A DNA stretch of 64,000 nucleotides from Labrenzia sp. THAF82 (GTDB lineage: Bacteria; Pseudomonadota; Alphaproteobacteria; Rhizobiales; Stappiaceae). This document shows positions 17,865-60,032 of the stretch, in pieces. Where the stretch lies: the NCBI RefSeq assembly GCF_009363435.1, contig NZ_CP045354.1, positions 562,001 through 626,000 on the forward strand, given 5' to 3'. A model generated the notes under the pieces. The model saw nothing but the letters and a program-made list of their open reading frames with translations. It searched no databases and had not been told where the DNA came from. Position 1 is the first letter of the stretch. Every line of letters starts with the position of its first letter. A program made the position numbers and the translations under genes.

Positions 17865-18353
17865 CTAGTCAGGAGTAGTTTCAGCCTTTGCCTGTTCCAG
17901 CTCCTCAATGTTGTGCCGGTCACGTTCCTCGTTCTCGGCCCGCCGTCTCTCCGCTATCTCGGCGCGTTCCTGCTCCCGGAGTTCGGTAATCAATTTGTCC
18001 TGTTTCTCGCGCAACTGCTTTAGCAGCAGGCCCAGTTCAGGGTCCTCCAGATGTGCCATTGTATAACCCATCGGGTTTTGGTCCGCTTGCTCGATGCGTT
18101 CGTGCAGCCACTTGTAGCAAGTGGTCGTGAAATCGCTCGTTGTTTCGTCGGAAAAGTCCACATAAAAGCGCACTGCGTCATCTGAGATGAGATCAAGGCA
18201 CTCAATCATGTGAGAACTGATTAACGTGATCCCCATCTCTTCACGATCACCAAACAGCTTGAGCAGTTGCTCTTCAGTTGCATTTGGAAGATCCGAATTA
18301 CACGCCGCGAGCATGACACTCATCGCAACAGTGGCTAGAGATTTCTTGAACAA
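17865..18353 (-). CDS. Predicted lipoprotein with charged helical C-terminus
   Basis: A 162-residue protein with a lipoprotein signal: MFKKSLATVAMSVMLAACNS, lipobox LAAC at residues 15-18, so it should be lipid-anchored. Residue +2 is Asn, giving no clear inner-membrane Asp signal. The middle contains Cys residues and short helices; the last 50 residues (LREKQDKLITELREQERAEI and on) are a highly charged coiled-coil-like helix. No known domain recognised. It stands alone between IS debris and the repeat region. Confidence 0.6.
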   Translation of the reverse strand: MFKKSLATVAMSVMLAACNSDLPNATEEQLLKLFGDREEMGITLISSHMIECLDLISDDAVRFYVDFSDETTSDFTTTCYKWLHERIEQADQNPMGYTMAHLEDPELGLLLKQLREKQDKLITELREQERAEIAERRRAENEERDRHNIEELEQAKAETTPD

Positions 18354-19074
18354 TTTCTCCTCCTGACTTTACTTCTCTGTCTGATTAGCGCGGCACTCTG
18401 GCGTTGACCTGTGCCATTTGACACAGCTTCGCAACACGTCGCGCTCTGGCGCAGGTGAGACCAGCTCCAGCAAATCAAGTGTTGCCGTTGTTACCGTATT
18501 GGGTGTCTGGGAGTGTTTTGAAGAGCCTTCAGCACCGGGTCTTTGGGCACCCTGCTGGAGCCGTCTTTGCTCTCGTTTTGTTGAGAGCGCTCTCTGGCCA
18601 CCGTTTGCAAGGGTAGCACGGGATGATGTGGCTGCCCTTGCTGTGGATGGTCAGGCGGCCAGAGAGCTGACTGTCTTTGTTCACAAGGGGTGGGTAAGTG
18701 TGGGGCCCTGTGAAGACAGCACTCCCGGAACTTGGATATGGTGTGCTATAGACACGCCATGCGGGTACCAAGCTACGGTTGGTTACTCGTTAGGGGTGGG
18801 TGGTCCTCAGGTTCCAAACTTTGGCCACTCGCCCCGAAAGCGAGTTTTTTGGTTGTATCAGCCAAAGTTGCGCTCGCGAAGCCCCTTTTTTGTTTTCCGA
18901 CCAAATTGTTGTGTCTTGTCAGGGGATTGCCCGGTAAACCTCTGCCCCCCGTGCTTCTGCCGGCAGGACGCAGGCCCTGAGTTGGCTTTGACGCCTTGGG
19001 GCTGAGGCCAGAGGCGCCTTGCACTCGACGTCCCGCCGATTTTCGAGGACTGAGCGCCTGTCCAATTCCAAGAG

Positions 19075-19234
19075 CCGATAGCAGGCAACACCAGCCGATT
19101 GCAGGCAATGTCAACCGTTAGCGGGCGATAGCAGCCGATACCATGCGTTAGCAGCCGACAAGAGCGGATAGGAGCCGATTGCATTGGATGGCAGCTGACA
19201 AGAGCCGTGAGCAGATTTTGGCAGCCGATAGCAG
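19075..19234 (+). repeat. Array A1: 16 phased 10-bp units, consensus CCGATAGCAG
   Basis: Cut every 10 bases from 19075, successive units include CCGATAGCAG, CCGATTGCAG, GCGATAGCAG, GCGTTAGCAG, CCGACAAGAG, CCGTGAGCAG and again CCGATAGCAG. Spacing is strictly 10 bp, one helical turn, so a protein would bind one face. The strict period with degenerate units argues for tandem binding sites rather than coding. Confidence 0.8.
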
Positions 19235-19329
19235 ACACCGGCTTGGAACATGGTCCTCGGCCGGGGTATGGCGCGGTGCGCGCTCCTCTGGAACTCTTTG
19301 AGTTGAAACATGTTCGGCCCGTTCATCAG

Positions 19330-19379
19330 CCGATAGCAGTCGTTAGCAGACGATAACAGTCGACAAGAGCCGATAGCAG
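19330..19379 (+). repeat. Array A2: five more CCGATAGCAG-type 10-bp units
   Basis: Units are CCGATAGCAG, TCGTTAGCAG, ACGATAACAG, TCGACAAGAG and CCGATAGCAG. Same family and period as A1 but offset by half a turn relative to it (105 bp from the last A1 unit). Confidence 0.78.
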
Positions 19380-19476
19380 AACGAGACGCGAAAGATCGCA
19401 AAACGAAGGTTTTGTGCGGGTGTTCCGCGTCTCTCAAGAGAGCGAGCGCTCTGCGCTGCCCGAATGGGCACGCATG

Positions 19477-19556
19477 TGATCTTGTATGATCCCATATGAT
19501 CTTTTGTGATTTTTTGTGACTCACCTTGAGATTTTATGATCTCATATGATCCCGGC
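19477..19556 (+). repeat. Array B1: eight 10-bp units, consensus TGATCNNNTA
   Basis: Units from 19477: TGATCTTGTA, TGATCCCATA, TGATCTTTTG, TGATTTTTTG, TGACTCACCT, TGAGATTTTA, TGATCTCATA, TGATCCCGGC. A second, AT-rich family with the same 10-bp period and a TpA step at most unit junctions. Confidence 0.8.
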
Positions 19557-19617
19557 TCAAAAGGCGCTGTTCTCCAAGGGCATGCACCAGATTGCTGCTC
19601 GCCACCCCCTTCAGACG

Positions 19618-19727
19618 TAATCCTGTATGATTTTATAAGAGATTGTATGATCCTATGTGAAATTCCATTGTTCCGTATGATACTATCAGATCCCGTATGA
19701 ACTTATATGAGATTTTATGAGATCGCC
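19618..19727 (+). repeat. Array B2: eleven 10-bp units of the TGATC family
   Basis: Units from 19618 include TAATCCTGTA, TGATTTTATA, TGATCCTATG, TGATACTATC, AGATCCCGTA, TGAACTTATA and TGAGATTTTA, in an unbroken 10-bp register. B1 and B2 are separated by 61 bp of non-repeat sequence. Confidence 0.78.
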
Positions 19728-20129
19728 GCCTCGATCAAACACACTCAAATATATACCCGCGCAAAACGTCTGTTTGCTGCCGTTTTCCCACAGGCTGGCG
19801 CTGTGAACACCTACACAGCCGTATTTGAAGCATTCACAGACGAAACGACCTTGAACGCCGTTGCCGGACGAGAGGTGACAGCCCCTTCGTTTGGCCTCTG
19901 ATATCGGCATCGCGCATGACCTTCGGCCTCTGAACAGCTCGGGATTCAGCTAATTTCTTTAGAAACGGCTGCCTTCAAGGCTGTATGGCGCTGCGCGCCC
20001 ATCGAGGTTTCTTCGGCTCCTTTTTTGTTTTGTCGTTTTTCCTGTCCGCTCCGGCGGATCTTCCAAACGGCGTTTGGTGTGTTATGGCTTCGGCCTGCCG
20101 CGGGCGCCAGACCGACGGAGAATTTTTGC

Positions 20130-20186
20130 CTGGAAAAATTTGACAAGGGCGCACTCTCGAGTTGTGAGACAACTCATTGCTTGATA
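20130..20186. other. Putative oriT next to the first traA
   Basis: AAGGGCGCACT (complement AGTGCGCCCTT) matches the core of IncQ/Ti-type nic regions, and immediately beside it GAGTTGT-GAG-ACAACTC forms a hairpin. It lies just upstream of a MOBQ-type traA start, the normal place for this oriT class. Nicking is inferred from the motif. Confidence 0.55.
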
Positions 20187-20212
20187 GACACACCAGACGG
20201 AAGGATATCCCC

Positions 20213-21172
20213 CTGGCAATCTATCATTGCTCCATCAAGCCCATCTCCCGATCGTCCGGACGCAGTGCTGTCGCCGCAAGTGCCTACCGCGCCGGCGCAT
20301 GCCTGCTCAATCAGCGCGATGGCCTCCTTCATGACTTCACCAAGAAGCAGGGCATCGAGCACGCCGAGATCGTTCTTTCCGAAGGATCATCGGCAGACTA
20401 GGCCCGCGATCGCTCGGCTTTGTGGAATGCCGCCGAGTTAGCCGAAAAGCGCAAGGCTGCCCGTGTCGCCCGCGAGTTTGAACTGGCCCTTCCCCATGAG
20501 CTTTCCCCTGAAGGGCGCATCGAGGCGGTTCGCGTGTTTGCCGCAGAGCTGTGCGAGCGCTATGGCACGGCCGTTGATTTTGCCATTCACGCCCCGCATG
20601 TGGCCGGCGACATTCGCAACGTCCATGCCCATGTGATGATGACCACCCGGGTGCTTGAGGACACTGGCCTGGGTGAGAAGACGGTTTTTGAGCGCGAGAA
20701 CAAATGGCTGTTGGCCAACGGATTGCCGTTGTCCCAGATCCAGCTTCGGGATTTGCGCCAGTCCTGGGAAACCATTGCCAATGCCCAGCTCGCCCGTGAG
20801 GGCCATGACATCCGGATCGACCATCGCTCCCATGTGGAGCGCGGGCTGGAAATCATTCCGACCGAGCATGTCGGGGTGCAGGCCACCCAGATGCAGCGCC
20901 AGGGCCTGCCGGTTGATCAGGTCGCCATGGATGATGCCTCGGCCAAGCTCAATGGCGAGCATATTCTTGAGCATCCTGAGGATCTTTTGACCCTGGTCAG
21001 CGGCGAGAAGAGTGTTTTTGGGCGGCATGATATTGCCCGCGCGCTGCATCGCTACATCTCAAGCGATGTGCGCCTGTTCCAGAATGCCTTTGCTGCGGTC
21101 ATGGCCTCCCCGGCGCTGGTCATGCTTCAGGGCGAGCAGGTTGATCCCCTGACCGGCGAGGTCAGCCCGGAG
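20213..21172 (+). pseudogene. traA: traA relaxase N-terminal part, TAG-interrupted and IS-truncated
   Basis: MOBQ/Ti-type relaxase domain: AIYHCSIKPISRSSGRSAVA with the catalytic-Tyr region SAYRAG, later VHAHVMMTTRVL with the metal His motif, and IRIDHRSHVERGLEIIPTEH. The expected ATG appears as CTG at 20213 (LAIYH). A TAG at 20399-20401 stands where Trp is expected (AD-ARDRSALWNAAE), and the frame is otherwise intact on both sides. An IS6 element cuts the gene at 21172. The helicase C-terminus of a very similar traA is found at 30169-31943 on the opposite strand. Confidence 0.87.
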
Positions 21173-24796: not shown

Positions 24797-25840
24797 ATGG
24801 AAGTAAAATCCACAGGTGCCGAATTCGGTGTTCAGCATTTTATTGATCAAATCAAAAAAAACAGGTCAAATTTGACCAAGACGGTTGAAAAGGCCGCGAA
24901 GATTCGTCCGAACGGCGGCGGTGCGCCAAAAGTGATCGAACATATTAAAGCTTCAAACGGCAATACGCCTCAATTCAATAAAGTCTCTTTGCTTAGCAAA
25001 ATCTATATGAAAACTAAGGACTTTAGCGGACAAGACCTTCAAGGAGCGGATTTCAGAGGGAAAGATCTTAGAGGAGCCATCTTCGATAATTGCGATCTAA
25101 CAGATGCAATGTTTGATGGCGCTCGCTTGGAAGGGGCAAGTTTCCAAGGGGCCACCTTGAAGGGAGCCAGCTGTAAAGGGGCCACCTTGAAGGGAGCCAG
25201 CTGTAAAGGGGCCATCTTCGATGGCAGTGATTTGACAAACGCGATGTTTGACGGTGCCCTCTTGGAGCGTTCAAGCTTTAAAAATGTGATAGCCATTACC
25301 GCTACGTTCATTGAGGCAAAAATGAACGATGCGGATCTGTCTGGTAGCGATTTCCGCAACTCTGATTTTACCAAAGCAAAAATGCAGCGCTCCACTCTTT
25401 CCGAGGCCACGTTCCGCGAGGCAGACCTTGAGAATGCCGACGCACGTGATGCAAACTTTGATGGCACCCAACTCGGTGATGGTTACATGAGAGGGTTTAA
25501 TATGGAAGGAGCTAAAATTGGCAATGTCCACGTCTTTGGCAATTTCAAAAATGCCTTTGATGGCGCAATTATGAAACCCGATGATGAAGATTATCTCAAA
25601 GCACTTCTGGACCCGGACTATGTTCCAGGAGCACAGCCCAAACGTAAGAGGGGCGAATATGAATTTGAGCCTAAAGCGAAACGTCAAAGCGATGACAAAA
25701 TGAGCTTTGGCACGCGTCAGTCAGGGGATAGTGATAGCCTTGTGCAACCCGAAAATTCTGCTGTGACAAGCGACCACTCTTATTCAGAGGTCGAAGAATC
25801 AGCTGGTGCTAATGACAAAAACACATCTCCAATGATGTGA
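24797..25840 (+). CDS. Pentapeptide-repeat protein with NLS-like basic tail
   Basis: A 347-residue protein of low GC compared with its surroundings. Residues 1-72 are polar and unassigned. Residues about 73-260 are pentapeptide repeats (A(D/N)LXX pattern, e.g. LQGADFRGKDLRGAIFDNCD), forming a right-handed quadrilateral beta-helix. A perfect 30-bp tandem duplication near 25147-25206 encodes two identical TLKGASCKGA units. The tail (about 280-347) carries PKRKRG and EPKAKRQ, resembling a bipartite nuclear-localisation signal, followed by a Ser/Glu-rich end. It could be a secreted effector or a DNA-mimic; both are inference. It is monocistronic. Confidence 0.75.
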   Translation: MEVKSTGAEFGVQHFIDQIKKNRSNLTKTVEKAAKIRPNGGGAPKVIEHIKASNGNTPQFNKVSLLSKIYMKTKDFSGQDLQGADFRGKDLRGAIFDNCDLTDAMFDGARLEGASFQGATLKGASCKGATLKGASCKGAIFDGSDLTNAMFDGALLERSSFKNVIAITATFIEAKMNDADLSGSDFRNSDFTKAKMQRSTLSEATFREADLENADARDANFDGTQLGDGYMRGFNMEGAKIGNVHVFGNFKNAFDGAIMKPDDEDYLKALLDPDYVPGAQPKRKRGEYEFEPKAKRQSDDKMSFGTRQSGDSDSLVQPENSAVTSDHSYSEVEESAGANDKNTSPMM

Positions 25841-26204: not shown

Positions 26205-26290
26205 TGGTGCGGACAGCGGGACTCGAACCCGCACAGCTCAAGGCTTCCGGATTTTAAGTCCGGTATGTCTACCAGTTCCCTCATGTCCGC
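26205..26290 (-). tRNA. tRNA-Leu(TAA), copy 1
   Basis: An 86-nt cloverleaf on the minus strand: acceptor GCGGACA pairs with TGTCCGC, anticodon arm ACCGG-ACTTAAAA-TCCGG with anticodon TAA, short variable arm, T arm GCGGG-TTCGAGT-CCCGC and encoded ACCA end. The D arm (ATGAGGGAACTGGTAGACAT) differs from copy 2 (59947) at about four positions. Its 5' end overlaps the 3' end of mucR copy 1 by 10 bases. Confidence 0.9.
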
Positions 26291-27356: not shown

Positions 27357-27433
27357 TGGCGACCCCAACAGGATTCGAGCCTGTGGCCATTCGCTTAGAA
27401 GGTGAGTGCTCTCTCCAGCTGAGCTACGGGGCC
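27357..27433 (-). tRNA. tRNA-Arg(TCT) with weakened anticodon stem
   Basis: A 77-nt cloverleaf on the minus strand: acceptor GGCCCCG, D arm TAGCTCAGCTGGAGAGAGCA, anticodon loop CTTCTAA (anticodon TCT), T arm ACAGG-CTCGAAT-CCTGT and encoded GCCA. The anticodon stem CTCAC/GCGAA has two mismatches, so it may be decaying or slightly odd. It would read AGA and AGG, rare codons in high-GC hosts but used in the AT-rich genes nearby. Confidence 0.8.
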
Positions 27434-27863: not shown

Positions 27864-29729
27864 CTACGCGATGATGTAGGGGTTTGGGTCTGCGTGTTTT
27901 TTGCAGTCTGGCCTGAGGAAATAGCGCGGTTGCCACAGGTGCATGGGGGCTTTTTCGACGTTTCTGGTGCGGGCCAGAACGATCTGTTTGCGATAGTCCA
28001 TGTTTCTGAGGTCTTCCGGTGTGACGAGGGGCCTTTGAATGAGGCGCTCCGAGTTTTCCGTTTCGGCCTTGAACGTGGCCTGGCCGATTAGGTCGAAGAC
28101 TTCCTCGCTGAACCTTTTTGCGGTTGGCGGGATTTCAAAGAATTGCACGAAGTCGGCGTTGTCGCGGATATCCTCAAAGGCTTCGCGTCCGTATTCGTCG
28201 ATGAGGCCGGCGAAGGTCTGTGTGAAGCCCCACACGGACAGCCCTTTGCCTGCGGCCATTCTGTAGGCCTGAAGGACAGGTGTCAGTCGGCCAATGGCGG
28301 GCATTTCGTCGAGCATGAGCAGGACGCGTTTTTCGGGTGTCTGACGGCTGACCTGGGCCATTGGCAGGGTGACCCACAGACGCAGGTACATGCGGACTTT
28401 TTCCAGCAATTCGGACGGCACGACAATGAACAGGTCAAGGTCATTGGTGGATAGGCCGTCGAGCGAGAACCCGGATTTGCTCATATGGTGCTGGATCTGC
28501 CGATATTGCAGGAAAGCGAGGGCGTTGGTAACGGTGGACAGGAAGGAGCCGCGCTCCTTTTCCCCGACCGAGAGCAGCAGCCTGGCCCCGTCTGCTGCCA
28601 AACCAAAGGCTGCATCGCTTGCAGCCATCTTCTCCAGCTGGGGCCCCAGAACGGCCCATTCCTGATTGAGCAGGTCTCTGACAGCCATCAGATTGCGTTG
28701 AGGCTGTGGAACGGTGGCGATGATCCAGCAGATTGAGCTTGCGATCACGCGCCGCGCACCATCGGCAAAGTGCGCGCCGGACGCATTGGCGTCTTTTGCC
28801 GGAACAACGAGCGCGTCCAGGATGACGTTGATATCGGCGATCATCCGCTCGTCCTGGCGTACGAAGTCGAGAGGATTGAAGTCCCAGCTGTCGGCACCGG
28901 CCATGTCGAGGTCTTTGTGCGCGTCAGCTTTTTCCTTCACAACGGCAAAGGGGTCCAACAGGACAACACGCCGGCCGAGCTCACGGCGGCGGCGTGCTGC
29001 GATCATATAGGCCTCACCCTTTGGGTCGATGACAACGACCGGGCCTTGCCAGCTTCTGGTGTTTGGAGCGAGCAGATTGGCGGCGATCACGAGCCCCTTG
29101 CCGGAGCGGGACGGGGCACAGGTGAGGCCATGGGCCTGCAACGGGAATTGCATAAGAGGCGAACGTGTCGTTCTGGTCTCATGGGGCTTGTCGAACTGGC
29201 CCAAAATAATGCCGCCCTTCCTGGACAGCTTTGCCATGATCCGTCTTCTCATCCAGCGGGCATCGCCGAACAGGTCGCTTTTGGATTGCTTGCGGCTGTC
29301 AGGATTGAGACTTGTCCGCGCAATTGCAGCGAGCGCGGCAATTCCAGCCAGGCCGTTGGCGCAGCCAAGAACCAGGAACTGAACGTCTGCTTCTGTCAAC
29401 AAGCCGAAGACCTGATTGAGGTAGCGCAGGTGTTGAACCGCGTTGCCGTCAGGCATGGCGGCCAGGTGTGGTTGGTACCAAGCCCAATAAAGGGCGATGA
29501 TATCGTCGGACTTCCAAAAACACAGAACCGCCGCGCCGCCCGCAATGAACCGGGCAGCCCCGTTGACGCTTAGGAATGCAACAGCCCCACCCAGAAGCAC
29601 AACACAGACCAGCCCCTTGACCAATTCCCCGTTGTTGCCTGGCAAGAACAGAGCAGCAAGCCCGGCCATGACCGCGTAGACGAGAATGGGCGATACAACG
29701 GCCAGTCCCTTGACCAGAAGAGACCTCAT
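27864..29729 (-). CDS. traG: Type IV coupling protein TraG/VirD4 (first transfer region)
   Basis: Inner-membrane ATPase that hands the relaxase-DNA complex to a type IV secretion channel; 621 residues. N-terminal membrane helices (about 1-110), Walker A region LTCAPSRSGKGLVIAANLL, VVVIDPKGEAYMIAA, Walker B KRVLLMLDEMPAIG and the C-terminal VWGFTQTFAGLIDEYG segment. Full length, ending in TAG. It overlaps the DUF6118 gene by four bases. The adjacent traA is broken, so this coupling protein may be an orphan or serve another relaxase. Confidence 0.92.
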   Translation of the reverse strand: MRSLLVKGLAVVSPILVYAVMAGLAALFLPGNNGELVKGLVCVVLLGGAVAFLSVNGAARFIAGGAAVLCFWKSDDIIALYWAWYQPHLAAMPDGNAVQHLRYLNQVFGLLTEADVQFLVLGCANGLAGIAALAAIARTSLNPDSRKQSKSDLFGDARWMRRRIMAKLSRKGGIILGQFDKPHETRTTRSPLMQFPLQAHGLTCAPSRSGKGLVIAANLLAPNTRSWQGPVVVIDPKGEAYMIAARRRRELGRRVVLLDPFAVVKEKADAHKDLDMAGADSWDFNPLDFVRQDERMIADINVILDALVVPAKDANASGAHFADGARRVIASSICWIIATVPQPQRNLMAVRDLLNQEWAVLGPQLEKMAASDAAFGLAADGARLLLSVGEKERGSFLSTVTNALAFLQYRQIQHHMSKSGFSLDGLSTNDLDLFIVVPSELLEKVRMYLRLWVTLPMAQVSRQTPEKRVLLMLDEMPAIGRLTPVLQAYRMAAGKGLSVWGFTQTFAGLIDEYGREAFEDIRDNADFVQFFEIPPTAKRFSEEVFDLIGQATFKAETENSERLIQRPLVTPEDLRNMDYRKQIVLARTRNVEKAPMHLWQPRYFLRPDCKKHADPNPYIIA

Positions 29730-33922: not shown

Positions 33923-34231
33923 TCAGCGATTTTCATTGCCTAGAAGGCGCTCAATGGCTTCGCAGTAGGATAGGCCTTCTAGGTCGCAGTAAGCCTTGAG
34001 TTGGTCTATCGTGTGTTTGCGGCCGGTGACAGTAATCTTGTCCTGAGCTTCGGTGCGTTTTGGCCCCGGCTTACGGCGAGTATTAGGCTCACGAGAGACA
34101 AATCCAAGCTCTTGTCCGTTCTGAAGAACACCGGCGATGTTAGAGACCGGAACAGCAGGTTTAGCGCTGCTCTGGGGAAGCTTTAGCGTATCGACCGTTA
34201 CTTTTTTTGACCCAAATCCGTAATTTGTCAT
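33923..34231 (-). CDS. Small partition partner protein of ParA
   Basis: A 102-residue basic protein (MTNYGFGSKKVTVDTLKLPQ at the start, then RRKPGPKRTEAQDKITVTGR) ending in a short helical domain (TIDQLKAYCDLEGLSYCEAI). It overlaps the parA stop by ATGA. Such small DNA-binding partners replace ParB in many small ParA loci. The related partner at 46500 also ends in a similar helical domain (YNRFVAWAIENRLSYPEALK). Confidence 0.65.
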   Translation of the reverse strand: MTNYGFGSKKVTVDTLKLPQSSAKPAVPVSNIAGVLQNGQELGFVSREPNTRRKPGPKRTEAQDKITVTGRKHTIDQLKAYCDLEGLSYCEAIERLLGNENR

Positions 34232-34959
34232 GCCGCAGCCTCCTGCCCGGGAAGGTTGTTGACGACCTTTTGGGCAAATGTCTTAGCGTTCTTGATGGCC
34301 GAGGCAACGGGTTTTAACGCTCGTTCTTGCTGTGAATTGCTACTGTCCTTCACTTCGTTACTAGCCTGGTCGTACAATTCCCGCAGGAGGTACCCTTCGC
34401 GGACAATTCGAGTGTAGGGCGCACGGCGCACGATGGCCGTTTCCAGTACCGGCACATCGCCAGCTTCCATGTCCTTGCGCACGTCTTTTTCGTCGCTTGT
34501 TTGGAAAGCGGCGTTCACGCGGGTGAGGACAAGGGCGTGGCCGATGGTCTTGTTCATTGCCCGGCTGGTGCTTCGAACCAACTGAACAGCGCGGGCCGCT
34601 TGTCGGGCTTCCATCGGTGTTGGTTCGAAAGGAACAAGTACTAGGTCGGACTGGCTGATAGCGAAGGTTACGAGCGTGGATGCCGTACCCTCAAGGTCGA
34701 TAATCAAGTAGTCGGCTTTGGTTTGGATGCTTTCTACCGTGTCTAGAAAGGCAGCTTCGCTGGGGAGGGGAGTTACCTGGAATGGAACTCCCCTCCTCTC
34801 GTCCTGGCGCTGTCTGGCCCATTGAACGATGTTTTGGTTGGGGTCACAGTCAAGAATGGCAACCTGGCCGCCTGCTTCGTGGATTTGTTCGGCCAGAAGC
34901 ATGGCTGAAGTGGTCTTGCCGGATCCCCCTTTCGGGTTGGCAAAGGTGATGGTGAACAT
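34228..34959 (-). CDS. parA: ParA-family partition ATPase
   Basis: A 243-residue Walker-type ATPase segregating plasmid DNA: deviant Walker A ANPKGGSGKTTSAMLLAEQI at residues 8-27, AILDCDPNQNIVQWA (switch I), YLIIDLEGTAS (Walker B) and VLVPFEPTPMEARQA. No N-terminal DNA-binding domain, so it belongs to the short type Ib/VirC1-like group, whose operator and centromere are usually bound by the small partner. Two matched palindromes lie just upstream. Confidence 0.92.
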   Translation of the reverse strand: MFTITFANPKGGSGKTTSAMLLAEQIHEAGGQVAILDCDPNQNIVQWARQRQDERRGVPFQVTPLPSEAAFLDTVESIQTKADYLIIDLEGTASTLVTFAISQSDLVLVPFEPTPMEARQAARAVQLVRSTSRAMNKTIGHALVLTRVNAAFQTSDEKDVRKDMEAGDVPVLETAIVRRAPYTRIVREGYLLRELYDQASNEVKDSSNSQQERALKPVASAIKNAKTFAQKVVNNLPGQEAAA

Positions 34960-45970: not shown

Positions 45971-46071
45971 TCACAAAACTTCACAAGGGACACAACAACG
46001 CCGAGCAAGTAGGGCACAAATCAGATTAATGCAACAACGCCGACTACCACCGCCAGCACAAACAATTTGTC

Positions 46072-46503
46072 TTCATAGACCTTGAGGGGACGGCTAACCG
46101 CTTAATGTCCCGGGCGTTATTCCGCTCTCACCTGGTTATAATTCCAATTCAGGCCAGTCCTACGGACGCGGAATTGGCAGCCCGCGCTATTCATCTCATC
46201 AAAGACGAGGGTGAATCCTTTGACAAGGTAATTCCCTACCGCGTCCTATTCACCCGAACTTCACAAGCTATTCCCACGAAACTGGAAAAGGCTATTCTCG
46301 CGCAACTCAAGGGCGGCGACATCCCGCATTTTACGACACATCTAAACGAGCGAGCGGCCTTCAAAAGCATGTTCTATCATCAACTGGATCTGCAAGAGCT
46401 GAATCAAACTGAAGTGAACGGGCTGCCACAAGCACGCGACAACGCCCTTCGTCTAACGGAAGAACTTGTGAACCTTGTCGCCGACCAGGAGGTCGCCGCA
46501 TGA
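46072..46503 (+). pseudogene. parA: ParA-like ATPase, 5' truncated and frameshifted
   Basis: C-terminal half of a partition ATPase: LEGTANRLMSRALFRSHLVI, IQASPTDAELAARAIHLIKD and PYRVLFTRTSQAIPTKLEKA. Immediately before, FID is in another frame because of an extra C at 46079-46082. The Walker A part is missing. Its end overlaps the next gene by ATGA. It is only distantly similar to the parA at 34228. Confidence 0.8.
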
Positions 46504-46787
46504 AAGATCTAGGATTCCAGAGCCGCCTTGCGACTATCAGGCCAGACAGCAAGAAAGATAAAGATACTGTCCCGGACCATGCTATTGACCAGGTAGCCGA
46601 ACGTCACGGTTTTTTACCTCGTGAACCTGTCAAAAAGATCGTTCGCCGAAAAGAAGCAGAGCCATCTGCTAAGCTCAACATTCGCCCACCAGTTTCAGTT
46701 TATAATCGCTTTGTCGCGTGGGCGATCGAAAATCGGCTGAGCTACCCAGAAGCTCTAAAAGAGCTAATGGATCGAGCGAAAATCTAG
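46500..46787 (+). CDS. Small partition partner protein (second par locus)
   Basis: A 95-residue basic protein starting MKDLGFQSRLATIRPDSKKD, with VKKIVRRKEAEPSAKLNIRP and a C-terminal helical domain RFVAWAIENRLSYPEALKEL. Architecture matches the partner at 33923: basic linker then short helical module. Without its ATPase it is an orphan, but may still bind its centromere. Confidence 0.6.
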   Translation: MKDLGFQSRLATIRPDSKKDKDTVPDHAIDQVAERHGFLPREPVKKIVRRKEAEPSAKLNIRPPVSVYNRFVAWAIENRLSYPEALKELMDRAKI

Positions 46788-49089: not shown

Positions 49090-49665
49090 ATGACCAGAAA
49101 TCTCACAAAAATCAGGGTGGCGGCATTGGCGGACGCAGAAGCGATCGCCAGTGTTCACGTGACTTCGTGGCAAGAAGCATATGCAGGCATCCTCCCGGAT
49201 CAGATGCTGTCTGACCTGAATGTCGCGGACCGCACAAAAAGGTGGACCTCGGTCATCTTTAGGAAAGCCGGTGGTCGTGAAGGTTCAGTGTTTTTGGCCT
49301 TGAACGAGCGCAGAGCCGTGGGGTTCGTTTAGGTCGGCCCACAAAGGGATGTCGCGTTGCGCGATAAGGGTTTTACTGGCGAGATCGAAGCGCTTTACGC
49401 ACTGGCAGCTGTTCAACGCAATGGCATTGGGGGGGATCTCATTCGCCAGGGTGCGCAACATCTATTGGCACTGGAGCAAAAAGCTGCCGCCTTGTGGGTC
49501 CTGGAAGACAATCATCCGGCACGCTCGTTCTACGAGACGATAGGAGCACGTGTGATTGGATTTCGCGAAGATGTGAGAACGGACGCTACATTGAACGAAG
49601 TTGCATATGGTTGGGAGGATCTCTCAAAAGATTTGCGGATCCCAGACGGGTCGCTCGTCAGCTAA
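49090..49665 (+). pseudogene. GNAT N-acetyltransferase with one in-frame TAG
   Basis: The frame reads IRVAALADAEAIASVHVTSW and QEAYAGILPDQMLSDL, then ALNERRAVGFV, TAG at 49330-49332, VGPQRDVALRDKGFTGEIEA, LYALAAVQRNGIGGDLIRQG (acetyl-CoA-binding Q-x-x-G-I-G) and WVLEDNHPARSFYETIGARV. Without the stop it is a normal 191-residue GNAT enzyme of the YobR/SWQEAYxG type. No other frame damage is visible. Confidence 0.82.
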
Positions 49666-52598: not shown

Positions 52599-54509
52599 TC
52601 ATTCTTTGAATCTGGAATTTCTGACTTTCCCGCTCATGTCGCGCCTTCTGAAGAAAATTGCTCTGCCGCATCTAAGAGGCCTGTTTCCACTTGTGAAGAT
52701 GATCTGTTCGTCGGACCGCATTTGGAGAATTTCATGTGGCTGGATGAGGGGCCGCTGAGAGAGCTGCCTGGAGCGGTTTCGTGTTAGGCTTCCGGCGCGC
52801 GAGGACCGACTGACCTGTTCGACCTCGACGGTTGTCATGCCGCATCGCTCGCAGATGTAGCGCGCGGTGTCGGTATCGTTGATTGCAGCGAATGAGACCC
52901 AGGAGGCGGATTCGAACCATTTGGAGGTTGCGTCCCGGCCGCCGAAAGCCTCTCGCATTTGTCCGAGCGACTGGAAGAGCATGAGAAGGGAGATGCGGTA
53001 TTTCCGGCCGGCGTCGCGTGCCGTTTCGATGATGCGCATGTAGCCGAGGCGGGCAGCTTCATCGAGCATGAAGAGGACCCGGCCCTTGATGTCGCCATCG
53101 CGATTGTAGACGGCTTTCAGGAATGCGCCGATGATCACGCGCGCCATGCCTGGGTGGTTTTCCAGGGTGGACAGATCGATGTTGAGGAAAACGGTCGTGT
53201 GTCCGTTGGCGATGATATCGGTCTTGAAGGTGTTGCCGGAGACGAGAGCGGCATAGTTCTCGTAAGAGAGCCAGTGTGTTTCCTTGGCGGCGGTGGCATA
53301 GACGCCGGAGAAGGTTTGGGGCGTCATGTCGATGAACGGGCCGACGAGCTCTTTCACGAACTCGTTCGGGGCCGTGTCGTGGATGTCGGCCAGGAACTCT
53401 TTCAGGTTCTCTTCCGGCTTGGTGAGAATGCTGCGCACAGCACGCAGCGATCTTTGTCTGGAACTGTTTTTGGAATTGGAAAAGACGACGTGGGCGATCA
53501 CGCTGGTGATGAGCTGCTCTGCGCTGGTGCGGAAGAAGTCGTCGGCACCGGATGCGAGGCGCGGCTTTTCCGACATGAGCCAAGCCGCGACCGTTGCAAT
53601 ATCCTCTTCGATTGACGCTCCGAACTGGCCGATCCAATCCAGGACGTTAAATCCAATCTCCGGGTGTTTGGGATCCAGGCAATAAATGTCCTGATCGAGA
53701 GAGTGGCGGCTTTGGCTCACCATCGGCGCAATCTCGGTTGACGGATCAAGCACAACCATGGAGCCGGGATATGTGAGGCAGGTGGGAATGACGACGGAGG
53801 TGGTCTTGTATCCGCCTGACCCGGCAAAGACGATGCCATGGGTGGATCCAAAGCCTTGATCGAAGGCAATGAGGGGAGCCTTTCCGCCCGGGCCCCAGGT
53901 CTCTTTGTGCCTGGGATCGAAATTGACTTGCGCCACGGTGTCGTTATCGACCCGGTAGCGCTCTCCTATGATGATGCCGGCCTGTTCGGGAAAGATCCTT
54001 GCTGCTGTGGCATTGTCCATCCAGTCGCTTTCGCCATGGATGGCTCTGCGGCCGGACACCCGTTTTGGCTGGTTGAGGCCGAAGGCGCTGTTGCCATTCA
54101 TGCCAACCTTGAGCCCGAAGAGGGCGACCAGGAATGCAGTTGTCGCTCCGGCGAGGGAATGGATATCTGTATAGTTCTGGATGGTTCCAGGTTGCACCTG
54201 GGCGACGAACGAGTTGAGGCGGAGCAGTTCATGAAGCGCTCCGACGGCAAAGACCATGACGCCACCGAAGAGAACGCCGAAGCCTGCCCATTTGACATCG
54301 AGACTTCCGCGCACTGAGAAGAGAACGATGAGACCGAGGCCTGCGGAGCAGAGGAAGGGAAGGGCAAGGCCGATCCTGCCGAGGGTGATGTAGGCTTTCT
54401 GGTTGGTGGCAAAGGCCGCCAGTTTTGTCTCAATCCCGCTCAAGCCCCATAGGCTTATGAGCATGAGGGCTATGGGGATCACCATGAAGATTGCTCTCTT
54501 GGGTGTCAT
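52599..54509 (-). CDS. traG: Type IV coupling protein TraG (second transfer region)
   Basis: A 636-residue VirD4-type ATPase: [20 protein letters not shown] and further membrane helices up to about residue 130, Walker [21 protein letters not shown] (GSGGYKTT), [13 protein letters not shown], Walker [21 protein letters not shown] and the end [23 protein letters not shown] 54509 is preferred over the 54581 frame start because the membrane segment begins there. Overlaps traD by 80 bases. Only distantly similar to the traG at 27864, so it comes from a different plasmid. Confidence 0.92.
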
Positions 54510-54687
54510 CGTTGAATGCGGCCTTTCCGATTGCGCGCCATCTGTCGCGCTCGTTCCTCTCGCCAAGGCGTTTCGCAGCATCGGTGAGGATGCCGAGAAG
54601 GATGGCCTTGTCGGTTTCTCGAAGTCCGGCTTTGACGATGAGGCCGCCGAGCTGGATCTTCTGTCTTGCGTCTTTCTTGCGGTCCAT
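54430..54687 (-). CDS. traD: Conjugal transfer protein TraD
   Basis: An 85-residue or slightly longer protein: [40 protein letters not shown] and [16 protein letters not shown], the RKxDTRxKIxLGGLxxKAGL pattern of Ti-type TraD, an accessory factor for relaxosome or coupling. The frame is open upstream of the ATG toward the traC stop ([20 protein letters not shown]), and the true start may be a non-ATG codon there. Confidence 0.85.
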
Positions 54688-54985: not shown

Positions 54986-55517
54986 CAGGTTTTCCTTATT
55001 CCGGGAATGGGTTTTTTAATAGACGGGGCGCGCTCATAGCGTGTCGTTGAAAGCAAGTCGAGATTGGTTGTGAAACTTGTCGTGGATACAACTTAAGCGG
55101 AGTTCGGCCATAGGAAAGGGAGTTGCCCATCGGCGCGTGGAAGCGTTCATTGAAGACCCGGTTTTCCAGCCCGAAGGGCCGGAGTTCGGTTTTAGGGAAA
55201 AGCGGACGGAGCGGGCGGAGGCTCGAACGCGCTGGTCATGAAGCGCTGAAGAGAAAGCCGTAGCCTGTGGTAAACCGGGTCTGGGCTTTTTAAGCATTTT
55301 TTCTTTGAAAGGGTGAGCTTGAGAAGGGGTGCTTTGCAAAGTTTGTATTGAGTCTTGGTCTTGCGCCCCGTCGCTAAAGGCGACGGCTCATTGGAAGGAC
55401 TGCCAAAAGCAGGATTTCTATGGGCACTTATAGGATTGTGATTACAATCCTTGCGTGTTATCCGGCACAGACTATCGCAATTGCCATCCTCGTCGGCTTC
55501 AGAAAATTCCTTCTTCC
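54986..55517. other. traC-traA divergent intergenic region, putative oriT
   Basis: In Ti-type plasmids oriT lies between divergent traC and traA. Here a candidate is near 55351-55387: CTTGCGCCCC, similar to the nic core GTGCGCCCT, next to the inverted repeat CCGTCGC-TAAA-GGCGACGG. The rest (54986-55340) has no credible gene. The two promoters must also lie here. Confidence 0.55.
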
Positions 55518-58500
55518 ATGTCGATATACCACTTCAGCGCTCAGGTGATCTCGCGCAGCCAAGGCCGTTCGGCAGTGGCAGCAAGCGCCTATCGGCATCG
55601 CACGCAGATGACGGTGTCGAATGAGATGGACCACAGGAAGTTCGACTATTCGGATCGGGACACGGATTTGGTTCACGAGGAACTTGCGCTGCCCGACCAA
55701 CCACCGGAATGGTTCCGAGCATTGACCGATGGTCGCAGCGTTGCCGGTTCCAGCGAGGCGCTTTGGAATGCGGTTGAAGCGCATGAGACGCGGGCGAATG
55801 GGCAGCTTGCCCGGGAAATTGTCATTGCATTGCCGAGCGAATTGAGCCGGACTGAGAATATTGCTCTGATGCAGGGCTATATCCGCGAAGCCTTCACGTC
55901 GCGGGGCATGATTGCGGATTGGGTCTATCACGACAAAGAGAACAATCCGCATGTCCATATCATGCTGACGTTGGCGCCGATGACGGAGAAAGGGTTCGGT
56001 TCCAAATGGGAAACGGTTTTGGACGAGCGCGGCAATCCAGTTCGAGCGGGCGGTCAGAGTAACGGCAAGATCCAGTATCGCGCCTGGGCGGGTGACAAGC
56101 AGACGCTGAAGGCGTGGCGGGAGCTTTGGGCATGTCATGCGAACAAGAGCCTGGAGCTTGCCGGTCATGATGCGCGGATTGATCATCGCAGCTATGCGGC
56201 TCAGGGGATTGATCTTCAGCCGACGACGAAAATCGGTGTTCAGGCACGCAACATTGAAAGGAAGGCGAAGGCGCGGGGGCGGGAGATCGATCTTGAGCGC
56301 ATGGAGTGGCACGCTGCTGCGTGCCGGGAAAATGTCACACGGATCACGCGCCGTCCGGAAATCGTCATCGATGCGGTTACGCGTGAGAAGAGCGTGTTCG
56401 ATGAGCGGGATATTGCAAAATACCTTCATCGGTATGTGGACGATCCGGGACAGTTCCAGGACTTGCTTGCGCGCGTTTTGACGTCTGCGGATGTGGTGAA
56501 GCTTGCGGTCGAAGTGATTGATCCGGTCACGGGTGAACAGGTGCCTGCAAAGTTTACCAGCCGGGAGATGTTGTGGCTTGAGGCTGAGATGGGGCGCCGT
56601 GCAGATGACCTTGTGTCGGCAACCTCGCATAATGTTGGTGTGCGCTCACGCGCCGAGATCCTTTCCAGGGTCCAGCAGCTTTCTGATGAGCAGCGCGTTG
56701 CGATTGAGCGGATCACGGGTGGGGAGCGGATGGCGTCGGTCGTTGGTCGGGCTGGGGCAGGCAAGACCACGATGATGAAAGCTGCGCGTGAGGTTTGGGA
56801 GGCAGATGGCTATCGGGTTGTCGGTAGCGCGCTTGCGGGCAAGGCGGCTGAAGGGTTGGAAAAGGAGGCCGGGATCGCATCGCGCACCTTGGCGTCCTGG
56901 CAGTTGTCATGGAGCAGAGGCGAGGAGCTTCCCGATAGAAAGACCGTCTTTGTGATCGATGAGGCGGGTATGGTCGACAGTCGTCAGATGAGCGTCTTTG
57001 TGGAGACGATTGCGAAGACCGGCGGCAAGTTGGTTTTGATTGGGGATGCGGAGCAGCTTCAGCCGATTGAAGCGGGAGCTGCGTTCCGGTCTCTGACCGG
57101 CCGGACCGGTTATGCCGAGCTTGGCACGATCTACCGGCAGCGCGATGAGTGGATGCGCAAAGCGTCGATGGATCTTGCGCGTGGAGAAGTCGCCAAAGCG
57201 CTCGATGTTTATCAGGCGAACGGTCATGTTGTCGGCCTGCTGCTCAAGGATCAGGTTTTTGGTGCCATGATCGAGGACTGGTCAGCCGACTATGATCCTT
57301 CGAAGTCAATGTTGATGCTGGCGCATTTGCGCAAAGATGTGCACCGGCTGAACCGGATGGCGCGGCAAGTTCTGATCGAGCGCGGAGTGATTGGGGCTGG
57401 CGACAAATTCCGCACCGAGGAGGGCGAGCGGTTTTTTGCAGCTGGCGATCAGATCGTGTTTTTGAAGAACGATCGGGAGCTGAACGTCAAGAACGGCATG
57501 TTGGCCCGTGTGGTTGAAGCGGGCGAGGGGCGCTTTGTTGCCGAGATCGGCGAGCCGGGTTCGGATCAGGCGCGTCGCGTGGCGGTCGATCAGAAGAGCT
57601 ATCGCAATGTTGATCATGGCTATGCGACGACGATCCACAAATCGCAAGGAGCGACGGTCGATCGTGTGAAGGTTTTGGCGACGCGCACCTTGGACCGACA
57701 TCTTGCCTATGTGGCGATGACCCGGCACCGGAGCGATATGAAGCTCTATGCGTCGCAGGAGGAATTCAGCGATCGCCGTTCCGGTGAACTTGTTGCGCAT
57801 GGTAAAGCGCGGTTTGAAAACAAGGTGACCAACAGCGACAGCTATTTTGTGACGCTCCAGAACTCGAAAGGTGAGCATCACACGACCTGGGGCGTAGACT
57901 TGGAGCGAGCGTTGAGCGAAGCCGGTTGCCAGCCTAGCGACAAGATTGGCCTTCATCACGTTGGCAAGGTGGCACTCCAGCTGTCGAACGGCCAGCAAGC
58001 GCACCGCAATGAGTGGAAGGTGAACACCTCCGCGGAGCTGCTATCGGGCCAGTTGAAGTTCTTCTTGTCGCGCTCCGGAGCGAAGGAAACAACGCTCGAC
58101 TACGCGAACTCGGAGCTTTACGCGCAGGCGTTCGCCTATGCCAACAACCGTGGCCTCTATGGGCTTCGGGTCGCCAAGGCGATGATCCAGAACCAACGCC
58201 GTTGGTTTGGTGAGCAGAGGGCGAAGCTCGCGATCCTCGGGGAACGGCTCGCCGCGCTCGGCGCAAAGCTCGGCATGGGGTCACGCGGCCTTGCCACATC
58301 TGCGAATACGGTCCAAACCGACGCGCGTGAATATGTCGCCCCGCCGCAACCCTGGATCAGGGGCGTGCAGGCTTGGCCGATGCCGGTCAAACAAGATGTG
58401 GAGGCCAAGTTGCAGTCGGACGCATCCCTTACCCCGCAATGGGAAGCGCTTGAGAACCGCGTCTCGCACATCTACCGCCAGCCGGAAAAAGCCATGCAAG

Positions 58501-59153
58501 CGATGCGGCTTGACGATGTGGTGAAGAATGGCGAGGCCGCTCATGCGGAAGATCGTGAGCGGCTGCTTCAGGACCTCAGCACCAACCCGGAGCAGTTCGG
58601 GGAGCTTAAAGGCAAGACTGGTTTGCTCGCCGGTGGGCAAGCCAAAGAGGCTCGGTATACGGCCCTGAGGAACGTGAACGGTCTTATTCGGAACATTAAT
58701 TCCTATGTCACGCTTCGTGCCGAGATCGCAGACCTGCGCACCTTGGAGCTGGAACGCGAGCGGGATCTGTCGCGCGTCGATGTGCCGGGGCTGTCGCCAG
58801 CGGCCAAAACGGTTCTGACGCGGATCCGCGATGCCATCGACCGCAACGACCTAAATGCAGGTTTGTCCTTCTTTCTGGCGGACAGACACGTGGAGGCCGA
58901 GCTCGGTGAAGTCGCCGCGAAGCTGGACCAGCGATTTGGAGAGCGGGCCTTTATGGCCGGCATCAAGCCGGAGGGACCTGCCTTCGAAAGAGCGGCCGTT
59001 CGGGTTGCCAGCGAAGACAAAGCCAAGCTTGCGGAGGCTTGGCCGAAGTTCAACGCGATCCAGAAGATCGCTGCGAACAGGCGTTCCCGGAACCAAGCCC
59101 AAGAACGCGCCTTGAAAAAAGACTGGTCCAAGGATCAAGGCATGGTTCGGTGA
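55518..59153 (+). CDS. traA: Relaxase/helicase TraA, full length
   Basis: A 1211-residue Ti-type TraA. N-terminal MOBQ relaxase: MSIYHFSAQVISRSQGRSAV, SAYRHR (Tyr region), NNPHVHIMLTLAPM (metal His motif). Helicase: VVGRAGAGKTTMMKAAREVW (Walker A), TVFVIDEAGMVDSRQMSVFV (Walker B) and DHGYATTIHKSQGATVDRVK. The C-terminal part (PEQFGELKGKTGLLAGGQAK, LRNVNGLIRNINSYV) resembles a BID domain, giving the relaxase its own secretion signal. ATG 55518 matches the family start. Its TGA overlaps the traF-type GTG start within the first 49-bp repeat. This is the intact relaxase of the window. Confidence 0.94.
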   Translation: MSIYHFSAQVISRSQGRSAVAASAYRHRTQMTVSNEMDHRKFDYSDRDTDLVHEELALPDQPPEWFRALTDGRSVAGSSEALWNAVEAHETRANGQLAREIVIALPSELSRTENIALMQGYIREAFTSRGMIADWVYHDKENNPHVHIMLTLAPMTEKGFGSKWETVLDERGNPVRAGGQSNGKIQYRAWAGDKQTLKAWRELWACHANKSLELAGHDARIDHRSYAAQGIDLQPTTKIGVQARNIERKAKARGREIDLERMEWHAAACRENVTRITRRPEIVIDAVTREKSVFDERDIAKYLHRYVDDPGQFQDLLARVLTSADVVKLAVEVIDPVTGEQVPAKFTSREMLWLEAEMGRRADDLVSATSHNVGVRSRAEILSRVQQLSDEQRVAIERITGGERMASVVGRAGAGKTTMMKAAREVWEADGYRVVGSALAGKAAEGLEKEAGIASRTLASWQLSWSRGEELPDRKTVFVIDEAGMVDSRQMSVFVETIAKTGGKLVLIGDAEQLQPIEAGAAFRSLTGRTGYAELGTIYRQRDEWMRKASMDLARGEVAKALDVYQANGHVVGLLLKDQVFGAMIEDWSADYDPSKSMLMLAHLRKDVHRLNRMARQVLIERGVIGAGDKFRTEEGERFFAAGDQIVFLKNDRELNVKNGMLARVVEAGEGRFVAEIGEPGSDQARRVAVDQKSYRNVDHGYATTIHKSQGATVDRVKVLATRTLDRHLAYVAMTRHRSDMKLYASQEEFSDRRSGELVAHGKARFENKVTNSDSYFVTLQNSKGEHHTTWGVDLERALSEAGCQPSDKIGLHHVGKVALQLSNGQQAHRNEWKVNTSAELLSGQLKFFLSRSGAKETTLDYANSELYAQAFAYANNRGLYGLRVAKAMIQNQRRWFGEQRAKLAILGERLAALGAKLGMGSRGLATSANTVQTDAREYVAPPQPWIRGVQAWPMPVKQDVEAKLQSDASLTPQWEALENRVSHIYRQPEKAMQAMRLDDVVKNGEAAHAEDRERLLQDLSTNPEQFGELKGKTGLLAGGQAKEARYTALRNVNGLIRNINSYVTLRAEIADLRTLELERERDLSRVDVPGLSPAAKTVLTRIRDAIDRNDLNAGLSFFLADRHVEAELGEVAAKLDQRFGERAFMAGIKPEGPAFERAAVRVASEDKAKLAEAWPKFNAIQKIAANRRSRNQAQERALKKDWSKDQGMVR

Positions 59154-59946: not shown

Positions 59947-60032
59947 GCGGACATGATGAAATTGGTAGACATACCGGACTTAAAATCCGGAAGCCTTGAG
60001 CTGTGCGGGTTCGAGTCCCGCTGTCCGCACCA
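59947..60032 (+). tRNA. tRNA-Leu(TAA), copy 2
   Basis: An 86-nt cloverleaf: acceptor GCGGACA/TGTCCGC, D arm ATGATGAAATTGGTAGACAT, anticodon arm ACCGG-ACTTAAAA-TCCGG (TAA), variable arm, T arm GCGGG-TTCGAGT-CCCGC, ACCA end. All stems pair. It forms a conserved unit with mucR, as in copy 1. Confidence 0.92.

Follow-up and report, generated by a model that had tools for sequence, protein, structure and literature searches.

What kind of element is formed by four arrays of short direct repeats, all with a period of 10 bp, that lie within about 650 bp of one another beside a transfer origin? The arrays were noticed from the sequence alone in the window, the stretch of 64,000 nucleotides analyzed here (positions 562001-626000 of a single 6,395,015-bp contig, a 6.4-Mb chromosome), and were proposed to be the centromere or origin of a lost or trans-acting system, or else a platform for a polymerizing nucleoid protein. 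Here, the statistics of the arrays, their genomic setting, and their relation to partition (par) loci were used to weigh these readings.

Organization and periodicity of the arrays

The arrays fall into two sequence families, a GC-rich and an AT-rich one, each present as two clusters:

19075..19234, + strand, GC-type array 1: 16 units of 10 bp, consensus CCGATAGCAG
19330..19379, + strand, GC-type array 2: 5 units of 10 bp, phase shifted relative to GC-type array 1
19475..19554, + strand, AT-type array 1: 8 units of 10 bp, consensus TRTGATCYYR
19626..19725, + strand, AT-type array 2: 10 units of 10 bp of the TRTGATCYYR type, with an eleventh, weak unit at 19616

The unit counts of the original prediction (16 + 5 and 8 + 11) agree with this delineation, provided that the weak eleventh unit is counted. 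The 10-bp period was likewise confirmed: mean self-identity at lags of 10, 20, and 30 was 0.59 (19073-19236), 0.73 (19327-19380), 0.53 (19470-19556), and 0.51 (19620-19727), as compared to best shuffle values of 0.37, 0.57, 0.50, and 0.45, respectively, and for each of the four arrays none of 2000 first-order Markov shuffles of the stretch, with free choice of a period from 7 to 13, was as periodic as the real sequence. The four top 10-bp windows listed for the 64 kb are all inside the arrays, and the 95th percentile of sampled 10-mers from the window was surpassed by 20 of 21 GC units and 16 of 18 AT units when these were scored by leave-one-out. The arrays are far beyond chance, and their size and composition from two families are unusual. 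In GC-type array 1, self-identity at lag 20 (0.62) is slightly higher than at lag 10 (0.55).

Two geometric claims held only in part. The 10-bp register, described as unbroken over about 650 bp, is kept within each array but not between arrays, since the GAT cores fall at 7, 2, 8, and 9 modulo 10, leaving the four arrays mutually out of phase. Placement of all units on one face of the DNA applies over short runs but not longer ones, because a unit of 10.0 bp is not quite one turn of B-DNA; in a wedge model, each unit of GC-type array 1 and of both AT-type arrays turns by 340-342 degrees, so that 16 units would drift by roughly three-quarters of a turn. As to bent DNA, the curvature predicted for AT-type array 1 by this model exceeds that of 99.6% of same-size segments sampled from the window, whereas the other three arrays, at the 30.5th, 23.8th, and 9.9th percentiles, do not stand out. 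With this property confined to one array of four, it is very improbable that the locus as a whole is intrinsically bent DNA or a platform for a polymerizing nucleoid protein.

Sequence constraint and a hairpin between the families

The two families differ in how their units vary. In the AT units a TNTGA core is kept and other positions are variable (chi2 35.2, p = 0.0001), a pattern that looks like a binding site; in the GC units, variation is spread evenly over positions (chi2 12.4, p = 0.19), which is also compatible with neutral decay. Unit similarity does not fall with distance in GC-type array 1 and AT-type array 2, the two arrays measured. Between the families lies an inverted repeat:

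19383..19433, no strand assigned: inverted repeat with 11-bp arms, 91% complementary

Folded as single-stranded DNA, the segment 19376-19440 has z scores of -2.4 (+ strand) and -3.0 (- strand). An Rfam scan gave a single match (E 0.7), below the gathering score.

Genomic setting and repeated copies

The arrays occupy a block between two landmarks that recur in the genome, within a region that a Pfam scan of the window ORFs depicts as IS-riddled plasmid debris with several transposases:

17879..18934, no strand assigned: left flank, a 162-aa ORF plus a non-coding segment, three copies in the genome at 98.8-100% identity
18935..20140, no strand assigned: block of about 1.2 kb with all four arrays, no gene recognized, right edge set by eye
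10355 and 39460: RepC-like pieces
27864-29729 and 52599-54581: coupling-protein genes (Pfam scan)

The RepC-like pieces bring up the possibility that the repeats are iterons from the replication origin of a lost replicon. No rep gene adjoins the arrays, however, and the iterons bound by replication initiators usually exceed 10 bp. RepABC plasmids carry a 16-bp palindromic parS, GTTN4GCN4AAC, the sole window match to which, at 49290, is outside the arrays. An origin thus appears quite improbable.

Several other features of this region were recorded. The 162-aa ORF of the left flank (17865-18353, - strand) is lipoprotein-like by eye and has distant homologs on a Roseibium plasmid and an Agrobacterium pAt plasmid. 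A long open TraA-type relaxase-helicase (55455-59153, + strand; MobA_MobL and helicase domains) carries a C-terminal BID domain (Pfam Bep_C_terminal, E = 1e-22). Genes for tRNA-Leu(TAA) and tRNA-Arg(TCT) are repeated in the mobile-element debris (26205-26290, 27357-27433, 59947-60032, and C1:671078-680475), and the ORF at 24797-25840, for a pentapeptide-repeat protein, contains a 15/30-bp tandem repeat at 25146-25218.

Self-comparison of 240 kb revealed how the block is joined to its neighbors. The left flank together with both GC-type arrays (17879-19469) is duplicated at 100% identity, in inverted orientation, at C1:657030-658620, 76 kb away; this second copy has the GC family only, the AT-type arrays being absent. 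The third copy comprises the left flank alone (C1:715308-716363) and is 99.7% identical to the window copy, while the second and third flank copies are 98.8% identical over a slightly longer stretch. In the third copy, as in contig C22 of the same-genus genome G002, the flank is followed directly by traG (coupling-protein domain, E 2e-54 and 1e-78, respectively). The third copy continues in the order flank, traG (broken across frames), a 95-aa ORF without a family match, oriT, and traA, the last with 76% DNA identity to the traA remnant in the window; in the window, the array block replaces traG and the 95-aa ORF between the same two landmarks. The GC-type arrays of the inverted copy run into traG, of which 33 residues correspond to positions 47-79 of the 600-aa traG product of G002 (85%); a GCCCGAATGGGC stretch that is found at both sites marks the join.

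Since the left flanks are near-identical and the traA copies differ by a quarter, we infer from these identity levels a recent origin of the junction at 18934 and an arrival of the arrays together with the oriT and traA on their right. The pairing of a GC and an AT family, highlighted in the original prediction, is suggested by the flanks; the second copy holds the GC family only.

The adjoining oriT and traA remnant

To the right of the block are the following elements:

20145..20178, + strand: oriT core, 5′ of the traA remnant
20213..21172, + strand: traA relaxase remnant (MobA_MobL), with an in-frame stop at 20399 and its 3′ side cut at 21172 by a repeated IS

The oriT core, which we take to be of the MOBQ type, bears out the proposed position of the arrays beside an oriT, while the traA named alongside it proved to be broken. 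At the place of CTCTCG in this core, CTTACG is found in nine relative loci and in the paralog in the same genome. From this core, the arrays end 420 bp and begin 1070 bp away, with no recognized gene in between.

This proximity is an argument for an alternative in which the arrays are a stability and transfer-control site on the oriT side, where a protein coats direct repeats, stabilizes the plasmid, and restrains conjugation without a ParA. Such an arrangement is described for R388, in which two sets of five 9-bp repeats with 2-bp spacers surround the stbABC promoter adjacent to oriT, are bound by StbA, and are needed for stability (PMC3098194). Comparison with other transfer loci points the other way. 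A close traA occurs in 9 of the 397 genomes of the order, and in none of 10 loci (nine relative loci from eight genomes, plus the paralog in the same genome) do the 1.5 kb that precede the matched part of traA contain a 10-bp array, the best k10 score being 0.38 versus 0.64 in the window. Scans of whole loci found no 10-bp array beside traA in 29 other loci of the genus (k10 at most 0.42) or in four plasmid loci (k10 at most 0.48, and that value by parA). Furthermore, neither a small DNA-binding gene nor an stbABC operon was recognized by the arrays among the window ORFs and their Pfam matches. A site of the R388 kind is therefore rather unlikely.

Search for relatives of the arrays

A nucleotide search of related plasmids, proposed as a check on the arrays, was run, but found no counterpart: blastn of 18400-20220 had no match in PLSDB, nor did blastn of 18900-20220 among phages. 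In DNA searches, the sole match among 101 genomes was the genome itself, and among 87 genomes of the family all matches outside it were confined to the left flank or further left. Sequence models of the GC family (R1) and the AT family (R2) were scanned against 61 genomes, where strong matches (E < 1e-4) were restricted to the known copies in the same genome; weak matches occurred in 14 other genomes for R1 (best E 0.0026, inspected) and in 11 for R2 (best E 0.11). The R1 model was also applied to the 397 genomes of the order, with filters in these larger scans that lose weak matches, and the weak matches in seven other genomes all lacked 10-bp periodicity (0 of 7). A GC pattern with two mismatches yielded two short runs elsewhere in the 397 genomes, taken as chance, and among viral contigs the match counts of three pattern scans were 0, 0, and 1, the single match being a short three-unit run. 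Repeats in contig C22 of G002 at 19.8-20.2 kb were considered as related arrays and rejected as coding. Among the open-access papers listed for 10-bp arrays with centromeres or oriT, none describes such arrays in its title or the opening of its abstract, and the word iteron is absent from a report on new Rhodobacterales plasmid types (PMC9025767).

A scan of genome contigs for four consecutive TRTGAY units identified at least 118 stretches; the 80 loci scanned (L128-L207) are mostly simple tandem repeats. At least six degenerate 10-bp arrays with a TATGAY core occur in two Victivallales MAGs (L128, L138, L169, L175, L177, and L190), and no ParA motif is present in the stretch read at those loci.

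That degenerate arrays with such a core arise in unrelated genomes, the Victivallales loci among them, is one reason to consider that the window arrays may be decayed minisatellites, i.e., two 10-bp tandem repeats that expanded, drifted, and have no function. The even variation of the GC units and the IS-ridden surroundings would agree with this. Against it stand the occurrence of two distinct families, both of exactly 10.0 bp, in one 650-bp stretch; the kept core of the AT units; the fact that adjacent units are no more alike than distant ones in GC-type array 1 and AT-type array 2; and the failure of the family models to find any further array in the genome beyond the known copies. Minisatellite decay is consequently unlikely, though it deserves serious consideration.

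Partition loci in the window as candidate partners

The par loci recognized in the window are two in number, both of the ParA type, and neither adjoins the arrays, the distances to the parA genes being 14.5 kb (34228-34959) and 26.3 kb (46036-46503):

34228..34959, - strand: complete parA, VirC1/ParA type
33923..34231, - strand: small partner gene of the complete parA, 102 aa
35000..35085, no strand assigned: hexamer (6/12-bp) array upstream of the complete parA, presumed to be its own centromere
46036..46503, + strand: type Ib parA, adjacent to an IS, with its first ~65-70 codons missing
46500..46787, + strand: intact 95-aa small gene after the truncated parA, candidate partner of the arrays

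The small proteins of both loci had been named as potential binders, and they fared differently. For the first locus, relatives on Neorhizobium and Phaeobacter plasmids have a 6/12-bp array upstream in both cases examined; given its own 6/12-bp array upstream of the parA at 34228, that locus has no need of a 10-bp array, which makes the 33923 product a poor candidate. The 46500 product stands as a candidate, belonging to a group in which 10- or 11-bp arrays occur frequently. It is 74% identical to its Agrobacterium counterpart and matches RHH_10 at E = 0.018, under the Pfam cut-off, with no NCBIfam match. The missing 5′ part of its parA was sought by eye beside the IS copy at C1:648217-648930 and was not seen there.

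The ParMRC systems of R1 and pB171, which had been offered as the model, appear to be the wrong model: both par loci seen in the window are ParA-type, and type Ib is the more fitting one. A search with PF06406 (ParM) had no match in the genome, as was the case in all 14 control genomes. The par2 locus of pB171 has a centromere of the type Ib kind.

Phased arrays upstream of related parA genes

Of the six closest distinct plasmid homologs of the 46036 locus, five have 10 or 20 as their strongest period upstream of parA; z>3 was reached in three of the six, and the upstream repeats of close homologs extend over roughly 100-130 bp by eye. In the Bosea megaplasmid pANAM02 (L109, ~1967-2704), phasing at 5/10/15/20 bp spans roughly 600-700 bp 5′ of parA, where 548 of 910 windows exceed the 99th percentile of the remaining locus; in Bosea pBSY19_1 (L112, upstream of 2719), the 10-bp signal is shorter and patchier (79 of 910 windows). 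The ParA proteins of these two plasmids are 50% and 45% identical, respectively, to that of L102, which in turn is 76% identical to the window remnant.

A ParA search of the order returned 31 matches in 26 of 397 genomes, corresponding to 30 loci; with the truncated locus of the genome itself (L248) excluded, 29 loci were counted, including one second locus of that genome. A phased array at z>3 precedes parA in 9 of these 29 loci, the other 20 being without a significant array. The nine comprise three with phasing at multiples of 5 or 10 bp (L247, L274, and L275), four with 11-bp phasing (L249, L251, L255, and L273), one in which 11-bp phasing is second to 6 bp (L259), and one with 17-bp phasing (L265). 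Helically phased arrays upstream of such parA genes are common but not universal.

Sequence likeness between the window units and par-clade arrays

The unit matrices were scored in 10-bp runs upstream of these parA genes against column permutations, which keep the periodicity; an earlier positive GC result, obtained with shuffles that did not keep it, is superseded by them. In a group of 14 loci classed as having a 10-bp array, a group assembled after the periodicity results and including weak or displaced arrays (L108, L113, and L114), the GC matrix was equaled by 7 of 1000 permutations and the AT matrix by 475; in the remaining 29 loci (three plasmid and 26 genome), the corresponding numbers were 719 and 975. 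L104 was left out because its upstream region is identical to that of L048. The GC signal is carried by L103, L108, L109, L112, and L114 (each p<0.03), and over the six closest homologs summed, 94 of 400 permutations were as good for GC and 224 of 400 for AT. As compared to other segments of the respective record, the score upstream of parA was the highest of 61 in 5 of 14 loci for GC and 3 of 14 for AT (Fisher p 7e-5 and 3e-4, respectively), in a control that ignores periodicity and is given no weight here.

Approached from the homologs, the evidence is against a link. With a 10-bp motif trained on the six close homologs, the arrays are absent from the 12 best listed sites in 240 kb, and 92 of 200 column-permuted versions of that motif rank an array first. 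The hexamer CGATAG, which with CTATCG forms the cores in L109, ranks only approximately 138th among 405 hexamers when these are ordered by their enrichment 5′ of these parA genes. The idea that the AT units are the centromere of the 46500 family, taken up when TATGAY was seen by eye in two plasmids, was rejected by permutation. Overall, sequence likeness lends weak support to a connection of the GC family with the wider par clade, and no support to one of the AT family.

An orphan centromere as the favored reading

We tentatively favor the reading that the arrays are an orphan plasmid centromere of the type Ib kind, in which a ParA acts with a small binding protein, and that the 46500 product is its most plausible surviving partner (probability roughly 0.45). 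The centromere of a lost or trans-acting system, as originally suggested, is the best-supported class, given the periodicity and the par clade with arrays, short of proof. In such a centromere, dimers of the small binding protein, probably of the ribbon-helix-helix fold, would occupy successive 10-bp units and assemble cooperatively into a nucleoprotein helix along each array; the complex would engage the ParA ATPase, by which sister plasmids would be moved apart, and the same binding could repress nearby promoters. The site would now be an orphan in the chromosome, bound in trans by at most the surviving 95-aa protein, since there is no parA beside it, the start of the candidate cognate parA at a distance of 26 kb is lost, and the oriT/traA unit is broken. 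With both the candidate parA and the adjoining transfer gene broken, present function is doubtful, and the locus itself is probably a relic.

A more elaborate version of the orphan centromere would give each family a role. In this bipartite design, the two 10-bp families, in two clusters each with the hairpin between them and beside oriT, would be served by two proteins or binding modes that build a single complex for partition and transfer control, and binding of the 46500 product to the orphan site would lead to incompatibility with incoming plasmids of the family or offer them a docking site. Such a design is improbable.

If the arrays are a centromere, it would be one of unusual size and make-up, with 39 units of two families beside an oriT and without a relative in the collections searched. 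The comparison also points to a mostly alphaproteobacterial group of ParA/small-protein systems that frequently have phased 10- or 11-bp arrays 5′ of parA, one of them, in a Bosea megaplasmid, roughly 600-700 bp long. In such a group it becomes testable by what means a very small protein assembles a partition complex along an array in helical phase, and in what way the arrays change in length and sequence during evolution.

Comparison with known systems

The R388 stbDRs resemble the window arrays as clusters of direct repeats next to oriT. They differ in having a period of 11, as two sets of five beside stbABC, whereas the window has a period of 10, clusters of 16 + 5 and 8 + 10 units, and no such operon recognized. 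The parC sites of R1 and pB171 (ParMRC, type II) are likewise direct repeats, with ParR repeats of 11 bp in R1 and 10 bp in pB171 (PMC9426499) and two repeat regions in R1 parC; they belong to ParMRC-type systems, in contrast to the ParA-type par genes of the window.

Type Ib systems offer a further comparison. Their centromeres consist of repeats upstream of the par operon that are bound by small proteins, as in the three parS sites of pSM19035 with 9, 7, and 10 iterons (PMC5016525). Short phased repeat clusters are a feature that TP228 ParFGH, pSM19035, and pCXC100 have in common with the window, as are several sites in the case of pSM19035, and par loci combining a small binding protein with a ParA are also present in the window. 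The type Ib repeats lie upstream of their par operon, however, whereas the window arrays have no adjoining parA, and the latter reach 39 units of two families over ~650 bp, as compared to the roughly 100-130 bp estimated by eye in the close homologs. In pANAM02 and pBSY19_1 the phased region is, unlike that of the window, directly upstream of parA; these two plasmids share with the window a 5/10-bp phasing, in pANAM02 with its CGATAG/CTATCG cores, and a likeness to the GC units that is weak, though beyond permutation.
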